From IMG/VR virus record IMGVR_UViG_3300025942_000017, positions 1 through 30,580 of that record: a stretch of DNA of 30,580 nt; one strand, given 5' to 3'. Below, in pieces: positions 4,136 to 29,240 of the stretch. A model generated the notes under the pieces. It ran no database searches and was not told the DNA's origin. It saw nothing but the letters and a program-made list of their open reading frames with translations. Numbering within the stretch: the first letter of the stretch is position 1; each line of letters starts with the position of its first letter. This DNA comes from a virus. Both the position numbers and the translations under genes were made by a program.

Positions 4136-4424
4136 TCTCCGCGTCATCGATGACCCTTTCTCTCGCCCCTTCGAGCTCACCCGCCCGATCTCCTCAATCA
4201 CCTTCCCCGATGGTGAAGGCCCATTCGAGTTTCAGAAAACCCCGCAGAGCACCGCAATCCCAGATCCGATCATCGCCATGGTCGAGAATCTCGGCCGGCA
4301 GTGCCCGAACTTCTTCGGCGATCGCCGCCCCGAATGGCAGCGCCTCAATCCAATGCAGCAGGAATTTGCGCAAAACTGGGCCGCCCGCACCGACCTGCGA
4401 ACCAAGGAGCGCTCGACGCCATGA
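4128..4424 (+). CDS. Small hypothetical protein
   Basis: A 98-residue protein with no family I recognise. It overlaps the HTH gene by 8 bases and its own stop overlaps the next start (ATGA at 4421), so it is part of a coupled run of small genes. The middle contains DPIIAMVENLGRQCPNFFGD, and the end is charged. No membrane segment, signal peptide or metal-binding motif is visible. Confidence 0.55.
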   Translation: MPDLRVIDDPFSRPFELTRPISSITFPDGEGPFEFQKTPQSTAIPDPIIAMVENLGRQCPNFFGDRRPEWQRLNPMQQEFAQNWAARTDLRTKERSTP

Positions 4425-4615
4425 GCGACGACTTTGACCCCTATGACGACGATCTCGAAGACGACGAAGACGATCTGTACGTGGATGAATGCGGCATGGG
4501 CCACGATGGCCAGTGCTCAATGGCCGGCAGCGAGTGGTGCGATTGGGATTGCCCGATCATGGCGCAACATGCTCGGGCGAGAATTGCCGCGATGAAGCGA
4601 GAGACGAAACCATGA
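4421..4615 (+). CDS. Small acidic cysteine-rich protein
   Basis: This 64-residue ORF starts at ATG 4421 (ATGA overlap, AAGGAG at 4404-4409). A longer same-frame start at 4301 would run inside the upstream gene and is less likely. The N-terminal 20 residues are almost all Asp/Glu/Tyr, then come four cysteines in CGMGHDGQCSMAGSEWCDWDC-like order (split here: CGMGHDGQC, then WCDWDC). That spacing could bind zinc. A strongly acidic head suggests DNA mimicry or protein binding, but this is speculation. The stop overlaps the ATG at 4612 of the next gene. Confidence 0.55.
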   Translation: MSDDFDPYDDDLEDDEDDLYVDECGMGHDGQCSMAGSEWCDWDCPIMAQHARARIAAMKRETKP

Positions 4616-4925
4616 CGGAGACTGTCGACCCTTTTGCCGCGGGCCTCTTTGGTGGCTTACCAAAGACGGCGACCTCTGCGTCCGCGACCTCTACCGTCGC
4701 CACTACAGCTCGCGGAAGTCGAAGCAGACCCGAGACCTCATCGTCGGTCCCGGAGACAAGATCGTCCTCCGAACCAGCGAAGGGGACGCGGCGTTCTCGT
4801 GGCGGTATTCCCGCTATCGGCGCGACGGGCAAGAAGGGGTCGAGTGCAACCTCTTCCGCAATGAAGGCCCGCCCTCTTACACGAGGGGCGAGGATAAACT
4901 TGCACCAATCGCCGCGCGAGGCTAA
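4612..4925 (+). CDS. Conserved-type phage protein disrupted by a -1 frame change
   Basis: ATG 4612 overlaps the preceding stop and opens MTETVDPF. From 4635 on, sensible protein lies in the -1 frame: CRGPLWWLTKDGDLCVRDLY, then ...HYSSRKSKQTRDLIVGPGDK, ...DAAFSWRYSRYRRDGQEGV and CNLFRNEG, ending at TAA 4923-4925. That frame has no start codon between its upstream stop (4593) and the Trp-Trp pair. The W-W-L, RxLYxRHYS and FRNEG elements recall an unnamed family of short phage-borne proteins in which, from memory, DPF is followed directly by CRGPLWW. The break falls at C-CCT-TTT (4629-4635). Either one T was lost from a T5 run (true mutation or sequencing error), or the ribosome slips -1. The shifted product would be 104 residues. 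The unshifted frame is low-complexity Ser/Thr/Arg and runs open into the small-terminase ORF. Function unknown. Confidence 0.6.
4617..4635 (+). other. Candidate -1 frameshift signal
   Basis: C-CCT-TTT (4629-4635) fits the X-XXY-YYZ pattern in the phase set by ATG 4612. GGAG (4617-4620) lies 8 bases upstream, close to the spacing of the stimulatory Shine-Dalgarno element in bacterial -1 frameshifting genes such as dnaX. A strong 3' stem was not evident by eye. A simple one-base deletion explains the same data. Confidence 0.35.
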
Positions 4926-4935
4926 ACGAAAGCCC

Positions 4936-5235
4936 ATGAGCTCAGACCTCGGCGCGAATAAAAAAAGCCCACGCAAGGCCGTGTTGCCGAAATCATCCGG
5001 CCGGCCCAAGGGTTCAGTGAACAAACTTCATGCCGAGGCTAAAGACGCCATCGCGGACGCTGCTCGAGGTCTAGGAGGTGCCCGGCGCTTGGCGACTTGG
5101 GCAAAGGAAAGCCCTGAGAATGAGCGGGCTTTCTGGGTTTCGATCTATCCTAAGCTGATCCCGCTGCAAGTCGGCGGCGACCCGAACGGTGCCCCGATCG
5201 TCACTGAGATTATCCAGCGGATTGTACGTCCATAG
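4936..5235 (+). CDS. Candidate small terminase subunit / DNA-binding protein
   Basis: A 99-residue basic protein starting at ATG 4936, 10 bases after the end of the disrupted gene; GAGG at 4918-4921 is a rather distant ribosome site. A longer same-frame reading reaches back to 4489 but is low-complexity and conflicts with the gene in the other frame. Near residue 20 it has GRPKGSVNK, an AT-hook-like element, followed by a helical region and a hydrophobic end (KLIPLQVGGD, VTEIIQRIVRP). It sits where a small terminase is expected, before the large subunit, and would recognise phage DNA for packaging. The call is mostly positional. Confidence 0.5.
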   Translation: MSSDLGANKKSPRKAVLPKSSGRPKGSVNKLHAEAKDAIADAARGLGGARRLATWAKESPENERAFWVSIYPKLIPLQVGGDPNGAPIVTEIIQRIVRP

Positions 5236-5283: not shown

Positions 5284-5946
5284 ATGCCAATCCCGCTCGA
5301 TATTGCCGGTCAAAAGTTCGGTCGCCTCACCGCCATCCGCGACGTTGGGAAGTGCATCCACGGTCGCGTGTGGCTATGCTGGTGCGACTGCGGCGGCGAA
5401 TCTAACGTCCCCGCATCAAGATTGCGGGGTGGGCACACGCGATCATGTGGGTGCCTGACACGAGAAGCAGCGCTCAAGCCGAAGACCTCGACGCATGGGT
5501 TCACGCGGGTGGCGAACAAGGCCACCAGCTACGAATATCACATCTGGTCTTCGATGAAGCAGCGTTGCCTTAACCCCAAGGGGAAGTCCTATCCGCGCTA
5601 CGGTGGCCGAGGGATCACCGTTGATCCATCTTGGCTGGGCCCCAATGGGTTTCTGACGTTCCTCAAGGACATGGGGCCTCGGCCATCCCGCCAACACTCT
5701 GTTGAGCGGAAAAATCGAGACGGAAACTACTGCAAGGCCAACTGCAAATGGGCCACCCAACTCGAGCAACAGAACAATCGATCGGGCACGCGCGCCATTG
5801 AGTTCAAGGGCGAGACGCTGACTAGTGCAGCTTGGGCAAGGCGCACTGGGATACCGGCCTGCACCATTCGCAGCCGGATCGACACGGGATGGACGGTCGA
5901 GCGGGCTCTTTCGGAACCCGTGCACGCCACTGGGCGACGGAATTGA
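5284..5946 (+). CDS. Free-standing homing-endonuclease-like protein
   Basis: The 220-residue protein has three parts. The N-terminus (1-60) has GQKFGRLTAI and cysteines in the form CWCDCGG and SCGCL, a likely zinc-binding module. The centre (about 85-160) has YHIWSSMKQRC, YGGRGI, FLKDMG, SVERKNRDGNY and NCKWAT, a core found in phage HNH-type endonucleases. The end (about 165-212) has SAAWARRTGIPACTIRSRI and GWTVERAL, a NUMOD-like helix-turn-helix for target recognition. Such proteins cut DNA lacking their gene and so spread it. It lies between the small- and large-terminase genes and its stop overlaps the terminase TTG start (TTGA). The - strand gene at 27056-27712 has a similar core. Activity is inferred from architecture. 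Confidence 0.78.
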   Translation: MPIPLDIAGQKFGRLTAIRDVGKCIHGRVWLCWCDCGGESNVPASRLRGGHTRSCGCLTREAALKPKTSTHGFTRVANKATSYEYHIWSSMKQRCLNPKGKSYPRYGGRGITVDPSWLGPNGFLTFLKDMGPRPSRQHSVERKNRDGNYCKANCKWATQLEQQNNRSGTRAIEFKGETLTSAAWARRTGIPACTIRSRIDTGWTVERALSEPVHATGRRN

Positions 5947-7352
5947 CCGCGCTAGTTGTCGATGTCCCCGAGAAGCTATCGGCACTTTTGCGGCCTGCTC
6001 GGTACAAAGGAGCTCACGGGGGCAGAGGTGGCGCCAAGTCACACTTTTTTGCCGAACAGTTGGTCCTACGATGCTTCAGCAGAAAGACACGATGGGTTTG
6101 CATTCGAGAGGTGCAACTGACGATGAGAGAGTCGGTGCGCCAGTTGCTCAGCGACAAAATCGAGAAATTGGGGCTTGGCGGCTTTTTTGATGTCATGGAC
6201 AATGAAATCCGCGGGAAAAACGGAAGCCTGATAATTTTCAGGGGCATGCAAAGCTACAACGCGGAAAATATTAAGAGCCTAGAATTGATGGACGGGGCAT
6301 GGATCGAGGAGGCCCAAACGCTCAGCGCCAGGTCGCTCCGGTTGCTGCGACCAACGATCCGAAAGAAGGGCTCGGAAATCTGGGCGTCGTGGAACCCTCG
6401 ATACGAAACAGACGCGATAGACGAGTTTTTCCGCGGTGACGAGCCGCACCCTGACGCCATCTGCGTCGAGGTCAATTGGCGTGACAATCCGTGGTTTCCT
6501 GATGTGCTCCGCGACGAAATGGAGCTCGATCGCCGCCGCGACCCGGAGATGGCCGCCCATGTGTGGGATGGTGGGTACGAGATCATCACCGAGGGCGCCT
6601 ATTACGCCAAACTGATCGCCCAAGCCGAAGCAGAGGGCCGCTGCGGCGTGTTCCCATACCGGCCAGCCATGTTGGTGCGCACCGGCTGGGACATCGGCGT
6701 CGATGATTACTCGGCGGTATGGTTCATCCAAGACGACGGGACCGAGGCTTGGGTGATCGACTATTTCGAGAGCAACGGGCTCGGAGCGCCACAGATCATT
6801 CACGAGGCATTGCCGGAATATCTCGATGATCCGATCGAGCGCATGCGCCAGCTGATCGAGATCGGCCGGCCGCAGCCCTACCGCTACGCGCGGCACTTCT
6901 TCCCACATGACGTCAAGGTCAGGGAATGGGGCGCTGGTGCCCGCACCCGCATCCAATCGCTGATGAACGCCGGCATGACCGAGATCCAGCGCGGCGCCAA
7001 CCAAGGCCCGGAGGAGCGCATCAACGCGGTTCGCGAGGTCCTACCGCTGATGCACTTCAACACCGGCCTGCCTGGCAAGCAGATCACTCCGGCACAAAAG
7101 CGGGTGCGGGCTGGGCTCAACCGAGTGCGCAGGTACTCGCGCCAGTTCAACGAGGCGATGAACACCTACACCACAGTCGCCGCCCATGACGTGAATTCGC
7201 ACGGCGCCGACGCTCTCGGCGAATGGGCGATCAACGCGCAACTGATCCCGCCACCGAAGCCCAAGCAGCCCGAGCATCCGCCGATCCCGTTCGGCCACAT
7301 GCAGTTGCCGCCACCACCAGATCCATCCACAGGTCGTCGCATGAAGCTCTAG
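5943..7352 (+). CDS. terL: Phage terminase large subunit
   Basis: The ATPase and nuclease of the DNA packaging motor, 469 residues from TTG 5943. Walker A is GGRGGAKSH (26-34), with Ala before the lysine; Walker B with catalytic acid is LELMDGAWIEEAQ (about 113-125); a coupling region ASWNPRYETDAIDEFF follows; the RNase H-like nuclease begins at GWDIGVDDYSAVWF and includes later acidic residues near HDVNSHGADALGEWA. This is the Terminase_3/PBSX-like form. The frame stays open upstream to 5832, but that part reads the endonuclease gene out of frame. TTG 5943 gives MTALVVDVPEKL, a normal terminase beginning, and couples to the upstream stop. No good Shine-Dalgarno is present, so expression may depend on reinitiation. 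Confidence 0.93.
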   Translation: MTALVVDVPEKLSALLRPARYKGAHGGRGGAKSHFFAEQLVLRCFSRKTRWVCIREVQLTMRESVRQLLSDKIEKLGLGGFFDVMDNEIRGKNGSLIIFRGMQSYNAENIKSLELMDGAWIEEAQTLSARSLRLLRPTIRKKGSEIWASWNPRYETDAIDEFFRGDEPHPDAICVEVNWRDNPWFPDVLRDEMELDRRRDPEMAAHVWDGGYEIITEGAYYAKLIAQAEAEGRCGVFPYRPAMLVRTGWDIGVDDYSAVWFIQDDGTEAWVIDYFESNGLGAPQIIHEALPEYLDDPIERMRQLIEIGRPQPYRYARHFFPHDVKVREWGAGARTRIQSLMNAGMTEIQRGANQGPEERINAVREVLPLMHFNTGLPGKQITPAQKRVRAGLNRVRRYSRQFNEAMNTYTTVAAHDVNSHGADALGEWAINAQLIPPPKPKQPEHPPIPFGHMQLPPPPDPSTGRRMKL

Positions 7353-27722: not shown

Positions 27723-27750
27723 AGTACATCTCATACACCACGCTTGTCAA
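27723..27750 (-). promoter_or_regulatory. Reverse promoter for endonuclease gene
   Basis: On the - strand TTGACA (27750-27745) is a perfect -35 box, followed after 16 bases by TGTACT (27728-27723), a 4/6 match to -10. Transcription would start only a few bases before ATG 27712, giving a nearly leaderless message. This fits the lack of a ribosome site and would make the gene independent of phage late transcription. Confidence 0.5.
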
Positions 27751-27764
27751 GGCAGGGGCTTAAT

Positions 27765-29240
27765 ATGCCGCGCAACGGATCAGGGGTCGCTTCTGCTGTT
27801 CCCGGAAGTAATACTGTGGCCGCTTCGACCACCATACTTTCAGCTTTAGAGAACTCGCTCGTCAACGATCTGATCAACATGCTCAACACCGCATGGCCGC
27901 TTTCGGTCGGCCTCGGTGCAGCTGGCCAGATCGGCTCATGGGACGCGCTCACCGCCAAAGGCACTGATATTCCCTCGGCTGGCACGATCAATCTTACCAC
28001 GGCGACCGGGCCGCGTGTTGACATCAGCGGCACGACGACGATTACTGCAGTCACGCTCGCCAACAGTGATATGCGCATTGCCCGCGCGACGGGTGTGTTC
28101 AAGCTCACCGCCTCTTCGACGCTATTGGTCAACGGCTCGGCGACCACGAGCTACACCACCAAGAGCGGTGACCTGCTGCTATTCCAGGCCGAGGGCGGGA
28201 TCGTCTCGGTCTATATCATCGGTCGAGGTCTCAAGGACACGCTGCGGTCACGCACCAACCGCGAGTGGAATCCGGCTTGCGAAGTCAGCCAGCAGAACGG
28301 CACGACGCTCGGCACGACCAACGGCTACTTCGCGACCGACAATCTGGCGATGTATTTCACCGCCGCGACCGCCGCGATGTCGATTCAGCAGATCGCAGGC
28401 CCGACACTCAACGGCTCAGCGCATCAGGTCGAGTGGAAATGCACCACGGCCAAGGCGTCGCTGTCGGCCGGCGACTTCGTGCTGCTCACCACCAAGATCG
28501 AAGGCCTCGACGTTGCCGACCTCAAATGGGGCACCGCCAGCGCTATTCCAGCGACCCGCTCGTTCCAGTTCAAGGGTCCGGCCGGTACCTATCACCTCCA
28601 CGGTCAGAACCGCTCGGGCAATCGGCACATCGCCATCCCATTCACACCGACCGCGGCGAACACCGAGGAGCGCATCGATCTCGTGGTGCCGGGTGATACT
28701 TCGGGCACATGGACGGTCGATAACGATACTCTCATTACCTGGGACATCGTGCTGGCGGCAGGGTCAACTTTCACAGGCGGCTCTGCCTCAACGTGGTCGG
28801 GATCGACGTTCTATGCCGCCAGCACGCAGTTCAATGCGCTGAGCCTCAACACCAATGTCGTGCGCGTGGGGGATTTCAGCTTCTCCCCCGATCCTGATGC
28901 AACGGGTGTGGCTCCGGCTTGGGTGCCGGTGAATATCGATGATGCAACGAGAAAGAGCCAGCGATACTATTCTGTCGTTTATGCCAGCGGAACGCAGGCC
29001 GCAACCACTACTGTTGCCACTTATACTGAACTCCCGGTCGCAATGCGTAGCGTTCCGGGGGTTAACTATGTGACCGGGTCGTTGACCATCGAGGGGATCG
29101 GGACTCCTGCAAGCATCACTGTGACATCTACCTCCTTCACGACAGCGTATTGGATGCGATCGAACTTCTCCTTTACGGCTACTGGCGCAACTGGAACGCC
29201 GTCGTTTTCACAGCATACGCTTAACGCGAGACTGACATGA
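27765..29240 (+). CDS. Tail fibre protein
   Basis: A 491-residue protein from ATG 27765 with AGGGG upstream; an earlier TTG (27744) lies inside the reverse promoter. The start MPRNGSGVASAVPGSNTVAA and the following TILSALENSLVNDLINML match the N-terminal attachment region of many podoviral tail fibres. The body is beta-rich: GPRVDISGTTTITAVTLANS, STLLVNGSATTSYTTKSG, then LFQAEGGIVSVYII, and a second part with carbohydrate-binding character (GDFVLLTTKIEGLDVADLKW). Base composition falls in the last 200 bases, as expected for swapped receptor-binding tips. The SGNH esterase gene overlaps its end by ATGA. Confidence 0.75.
   Translation: MPRNGSGVASAVPGSNTVAASTTILSALENSLVNDLINMLNTAWPLSVGLGAAGQIGSWDALTAKGTDIPSAGTINLTTATGPRVDISGTTTITAVTLANSDMRIARATGVFKLTASSTLLVNGSATTSYTTKSGDLLLFQAEGGIVSVYIIGRGLKDTLRSRTNREWNPACEVSQQNGTTLGTTNGYFATDNLAMYFTAATAAMSIQQIAGPTLNGSAHQVEWKCTTAKASLSAGDFVLLTTKIEGLDVADLKWGTASAIPATRSFQFKGPAGTYHLHGQNRSGNRHIAIPFTPTAANTEERIDLVVPGDTSGTWTVDNDTLITWDIVLAAGSTFTGGSASTWSGSTFYAASTQFNALSLNTNVVRVGDFSFSPDPDATGVAPAWVPVNIDDATRKSQRYYSVVYASGTQAATTTVATYTELPVAMRSVPGVNYVTGSLTIEGIGTPASITVTSTSFTTAYWMRSNFSFTATGATGTPSFSQHTLNARLT

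Follow-up and report, generated by a model that had tools for sequence, protein, structure and literature searches.

A probable start-proximal -1 frameshift and a conserved overlapping reading frame in the phage gene family phrog_24928

Introduction

Does a phage gene whose reading frame breaks a few codons past its start encode one broken protein, or two overlapping proteins from one start codon? The question was raised by an earlier note, made from the sequence alone, on the window, which here means the whole 30,580-nucleotide stretch of viral DNA that was analysed (IMG/VR record IMGVR_UViG_3300025942_000017). The note described a gene split at a slippery heptamer, and offered both programmed -1 frameshifting and the loss of one T from a T5 run as explanations. 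In tailed phages, programmed frameshifting has been described chiefly for tail chaperone genes, which made up 2,397 of the 2,476 annotated cases in one phage set (PMC10885494). Frameshift finders overlook start-proximal shifts; GeneTack missed those less than about 50 nt past the start (PMC3711429).

Results

The frame break in the window

The features of the locus are listed in Table 1. The reading of the window bears out the ATG that the note saw opening MTETVDPF. It also agrees that the protein continues only in the -1 frame: the conserved sequence (CRGPLWWLTKDGD...AARG, 4635-4922, stop at 4923-4925) was found in that frame alone, which is open from 4596 and holds no ATG, GTG, or TTG ahead of the conserved protein. 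The change of frame falls on the heptamer in the phase X_XXY_YYZ, as the note had read it (C4629, CCT 4630-4632, TTT 4633-4635), and this phase fits tandem -1 slippage of CCT to CCC and of TTT to TTT. The zero frame stays open, again as described. The trans-frame product would have 8+96 = 104 residues, which is the length that the note gave, but it is a truncated relative of homologues of ~145 residues. The GGAG lies 8 bases upstream, where it had been placed, while its proposed role as a frameshift stimulator found no backing in the homologues, which do not keep it.

No Pfam or PHROG family matched the upstream ORF (4421..4615). The downstream ORF had been called small-terminase-like, and no family match supported this; the only PHROG match of 4936-5232 was phrog_11043, whose function is not annotated there. 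An HNH endonuclease gene follows at 5284-5946, and it overlaps and directly precedes the large terminase ORF (5832-7352).

Table 1. Positions of the features around the frame break in the window
Feature	Position	Strand	Remarks
Upstream ORF, 64 aa, acidic, Cys-containing	4421..4615	+	stop overlaps the shared start as ATGA
Common ATG of the zero frame and the putative trans-frame product	4612..4614	+	reading M T E T V D P F
GGAG, SD-like	4617..4620	+	8 nt 5' of the heptamer; not conserved
Slippery heptamer C_CCT_TTT, -1 register	4629..4635	+	
-1 frame portion of the product, N-terminal half of phrog_24928 (GNAT-like)	4635..4925	+	profile match E=4.4e-10
Zero-frame ORF, 207 codons	4612..5235	+	beneath the -1 product, then in frame through the downstream ORF
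Downstream ORF MSSDLGANKK..., own ATG, zero frame	4936..5235	+	phrog_11043; 5' of HNH endonuclease and TerL

The same break and the same heptamer in homologues

We compared 133 distinct homologous loci from viral contigs, genomes, and plasmids. The majority begin normally with M(x)(x)PLWWLTKDGD. Thirteen of the 133, including the window, are start-less, that is, no in-frame start lies within 15 codons of the M(x)(x)PLWWLTKDGD-type motif. In 12 of these 13, among them the window, (C/T)CCTTTN follows a zero-frame ATG or GTG and keeps one register, versus only 2 of the 120 loci that have an in-frame start (Fisher p=3e-14). Those two are L003, alone among the heptamer relatives in having an in-frame ATG, and L170, whose only 'start' is a TTG immediately before WW and which has a TAG immediately before CCC. 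The comparison of heptamers across homologues that the note had set as a check thus gave (C/T)CCTTTN kept in register in 14 lineages, with a zero-frame ATG or GTG upstream in 14/14. The form is C_CCT_TT(T/C/G) in 13 lineages and T_CCT_TTT in L071. The zero-frame leader (3-26 codons) varies in length and sequence, and the spacing from heptamer to WW also varies, while the register is constant; examples of the predicted junctions are MNDTDPF/RDGPLWW (L004), MGDPF/SDGPLWW (L071), VSRPVPF/WWLTK (L046), and MSDRKDDAAPF/WWITK (L230). The motif is otherwise rare, with no in-phase C_CCT_TTN in 6,080 codons of other window genes or in the long ORFs of related contigs, which span 16,336 codons (22,416 codons combined). 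CCT makes up 6-15% of Pro codons.

A sequencing or assembly error, or a recent loss of one base in the T run, would leave the window gene simply broken. Single-base changes at short C/T runs are a classic artefact, and the copy in the window is 3'-truncated already. However, the identical break and motif occur in 13 other lineages from independent samples, among them two isolate genomes, Sphingopyxis witflariensis and S. flava (L068, L076), and since isolates carry the break it is not an assembly error. We therefore give next to no credence to an error or a recent loss in the window, and the explanation is refuted at the level of the family, as is the note's T5 run. Nor does the protein follow DPF without a change of frame in the relatives, as the note had it; they show the same frame break instead. 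The predicted trans-frame peptide of the S. witflariensis prophage is MDSPHLLSLAGEGTRPF-WWLTK. A search of 398 Sphingopyxis-family genomes returned no further frameshift-type member.

In a quick tree, built from few columns and with many weakly supported forks, L001-L008 group with the window in a single clade (support 98), and five more frameshift-type loci are scattered outside it. The arrangement needs at least 6 changes on this tree, and well-supported branches force at least 3. Thus, the arrangement was probably gained or lost several times, or transferred between lineages.

Could translation of the GNAT-like protein instead begin in the protein's own frame, from a non-canonical codon or through re-initiation beside the heptamer, with CCCTTT kept for another reason such as an unusual initiation region? 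The sole start-less homologue without the heptamer, L150, has a Shine-Dalgarno sequence and an in-frame ATT that would suit such initiation, CTG precedes WW in some loci, and no stimulator of frameshifting was found. On the other hand, the product frame has no conserved near-cognate start. Several loci (L230, L170, L008, L071) have a product-frame stop 4-7 codons 5' of WW, which leaves no room for a product-frame start, whereas zero-frame starts are present at all loci. Re-initiation would also leave the constant register of the heptamer unexplained. We regard initiation in the product frame as improbable, and programmed frameshifting as the better account of these loci.

Three loci drew attention for their own sake. 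In L150, around position 2000, AGGAG lies 8 nt 5' of the in-frame ATT, possibly a non-canonical start. In L239 (oriented to match), TAG replaces the conserved aromatic residue just 5' of the KDGD motif; the +1 frame is open, and the product frame becomes so only past this TAG. In L078, from 1501 onward, the N-terminal product frame runs directly into +1-frame sequence (NDSGQLSDRLMPLLISSGLVKGIIPTS), as if an indel had fused both overlapping proteins.

The shift signal

In E. coli, C_CC.U_UU.A/G/U and C_CC.U_UU.C are listed as shift-prone, and H_HH.U_UU.Y, which C_CC.U_UU.Y fits, is among the most efficient -1 motifs (PMC4066793). C_CC.U_UU motifs without a stimulator shifted at low frequency in the same species (PMC4066793). 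No conserved SD-like sequence or hairpin stimulator was found at the frameshift-type loci, where structure z-scores ranged from -2.95 to +0.16. T_CCT_TTT of L071 offers poorer re-pairing in the P site. As the heptamer is so near the start, the Shine-Dalgarno sequence of initiation could act as a stimulator, but this is speculation.

The zero frame and a conserved overlapping ORF

At the frameshift-type loci the zero frame (the +1 frame relative to the product) is open over essentially the whole gene. At codons 0-3, a +1-frame stop (CTG-AC just after WW) was seen in none of 13 frameshift-type loci versus 54 of 114 ordinary ones (p=4.5e-4). Over codons 4-74 the frameshift group had 0 stops against 2.3 expected, which is weakly significant alone. 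The zero frame tends to end at the next gene: its stop overlaps or abuts the next start in L001, L002, L003, L005, L006, L046, L170, and L272, as ATGA, GTGA, TAGATG, or a few bases off, and two further loci come within 5 nt.

Codon-position analysis located a stretch where both frames appear to be constrained. In the first ~70 product codons and after codon ~108, constraint comes from the product frame only. In codons ~74-106, the variable position becomes product position 1, where the zero frame has its wobble base. The ratio p1/p3 was 2.1-3.8 at codons +2 to +9 in all of three groups, and 0.2-0.8 farther upstream. Product codons of this stretch (NCT/NNT) vary in the amino acid they encode, but Gly (GGN) and Leu (CTN) of the zero frame stay fixed, and over these ~32 codons 127 genes contained 0 zero-frame stops against ~98 expected. 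The absence of stops and the wobble shift were also seen in ordinary homologues without the frameshift, so the whole family appears to have the overlapping ORF. By this signature, the ~32-codon stretch is best read as a conserved overlapping, dual-coding ORF, and the zero frame looks real.

The frameshift could nevertheless be real and the zero frame not a gene, being open only to keep unshifted ribosomes on the mRNA as far as the next gene (coupling or anti-polarity), with the signature due to an RNA or DNA element. The coincidence of zero-frame stops with next-gene starts would suit this. So would the zero-frame amino acids, which showed no conservation outside the ~32-codon stretch, and the AF2 model of the zero-frame protein, which showed mainly disorder, no confident fold, and, within the conserved stretch, a helix of low confidence. 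Against this, substitutions follow the zero-frame wobble, with GGN and CTN fixed as the product residue changes; stops are absent from 127 genes, including those that have no frameshift; and Rfam gave no match. We consider a non-coding role of the zero frame unlikely.

Two other sources of the constraint were rejected. An antisense gene is not favored, as the in-register antisense frame, which has its wobble position in common with the zero frame, contains 0.4-0.6 stops per gene and scores lower in similarity. A hairpin is not favored either: by eye, the GCCU/AGGC pairing is broken without compensation in L037, L047, and L060, and zero-frame Gly is kept.

An example of a predicted zero-frame peptide, from the Sphingopyxis witflariensis prophage, is SLSDRLTPSLISSGLVCGITPSSIR. 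In the ordinary members a consistent start codon for the +1 ORF was not found. An internal TTG at the conserved ATTGCT was considered and discarded, as stops are absent from the 12 codons upstream of it too.

Two observations concern long open frames elsewhere. In L005 (L162:2440-2580), the zero frame passes the product stop into a zinc-ribbon-like domain and ends on the ATGA of the next gene. The domain matched PF18912 (DZR_2) at E=4.7e-4, below its cut-off, and its value as proof of zero-frame translation is weakened by a TTG at L162:2401 that could start the domain. In the window, the +1 frame of the 498-aa gene at 27744-29240 holds a stop-free run of 322 codons, and no window gene checked had a longer one.

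The window copy is truncated

The window copy differs from its relatives at the 3' end. Its homology stops near 4871 (query residues 3-79 matched), the last ~17 residues of its -1 product are non-homologous, and ~65 C-terminal residues are missing, including the dual-coding stretch. Its zero frame continues straight into the ORF at 4936-5235. By this comparison, the window copy is one whose 3' half was lost by deletion while the fork was kept, so that both predicted products are truncated or altered. The window copy itself may or may not be functional, and its frameshift may be a relic.

The product family

The phrog_24928 profile matched the window over the N-terminal half and intact relatives with E-values down to 5e-27; the PHROG annotation gives its function as unknown. 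For an intact relative, L006, the AF2 model (pLDDT 89.8) has the strand and helix order of GNATs, and Foldseek searches of PDB and viral libraries returned GNAT matches with modest scores (best E 9e-4, TM about 0.6). The modelled product is thus GNAT-like in fold, and we claim the fold only and not the use of acyl-CoA. The canonical acetyl-CoA loop (Q/R-x-x-G-x-G/A), which lies between strand 4 and helix 3, is absent from the family consensus, which at that place reads FRNESxHxSSxLIRQADAIAD. The truncated window copy would be without the second half of the fold. Sequence searches of the product against Pfam, NCBIfam, and PDB gave no useful match. Membership in the Mom family (PF25680) was rejected, with no Pfam match in 55 members and an hhalign probability of 0.2% to Mu Mom.

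The gene surroundings in three relatives contain replication and modification genes. The gene adjoins a DNA methyltransferase in L006 (1966-3156) and a DnaB-like helicase in L002 (1645-2952), and it lies beside two DNA methyltransferases in Paenibacillus phage Lily (L216).

Discussion

We think it quite likely that a subset of phrog_24928 makes its GNAT-like protein by programmed -1 frameshifting on (C/T)_CCT_TTN, a few codons past the start. Translation would begin at the zero-frame ATG or GTG, coupled to the upstream gene in some loci. With Pro-Phe tRNAs on CCT-TTN, a fraction of ribosomes would slip back by one base onto CCC-TTT and make M...PF joined to WWLTKDGD..., the GNAT protein. Unslipped ribosomes would make the overlapping zero-frame protein over the whole gene and be delivered to the start of the next gene. 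In frameshift-type members, one start codon would supply two overlapping proteins, and this is the outcome the note had proposed; conservation of the heptamer and of its register, the lack of a product-frame start, and a zero frame that stays open all support it. These features, together with the position of the break and the dual-coding signature, come from sequence comparison; from them we infer that slippage occurs, its efficiency, and the function of both products.

The arrangement has partial parallels. Like the lambda-type tail assembly chaperone (gpG/gpGT), it concerns a phage gene with a -1 shift at X_XXY_YYZ and two products per start. In gpG/gpGT, however, ribosomes shift close to the 3' end of the first ORF, and the protein gains a C-terminal extension, while here the shift would come 3-26 codons past the start of a GNAT-like gene outside the tail region, with both frames open for ~130-200 codons. 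In prfB (release factor 2), a start-proximal frameshift also governs the full enzyme, but it is a +1 shift at CUU_UGA with an immediate stop, whereas the shift here would be -1, out of a long zero-frame ORF. The overprinted genes Rz/Rz1 similarly have a second ORF in another frame with evolutionary constraint on both, although Rz1 has its own start and the frames here have a common start and would be joined by a slip in the frameshift subset. In the com-mom system of phage Mu, too, translation of a phage protein with a GNAT-like fold is specially controlled. There, however, Com unmasks the start of Mom and no frameshift is involved, and Mom has no sequence relation to the phrog_24928 product. 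Insertion sequences of the IS1/IS3 families share overlapping ORFs, a -1 heptamer, and a downstream frame that depends on the shift, but their motifs are mostly A-rich with stimulatory structures (PMC4066793), and here there is C_CCT_TTN with no conserved stimulator and no transposase.

In the open-licence literature searched we found no start-proximal -1 frameshift that connects two long overlapping frames within a GNAT-like phage gene. Overprinting is known and so is programmed frameshifting; their combination in a phrog_24928 gene would be new. A broader proposal, on which we are evenly divided, is that the +1 frame of phrog_24928 holds a widespread unannotated overlapping gene, and that at least 14 lineages feed both proteins from one start by a -1 shift within 3-26 codons, which would set their ratio, while separate starts would serve elsewhere. 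Genes of this kind risk being dismissed as frameshifted pseudogenes. The start-proximal -1 shift would be one conserved in a non-structural phage gene, and it reveals a putative overlapping ORF that annotation has missed. The family thus offers a testable case in which a single start codon would split ribosomes between two overlapping proteins.
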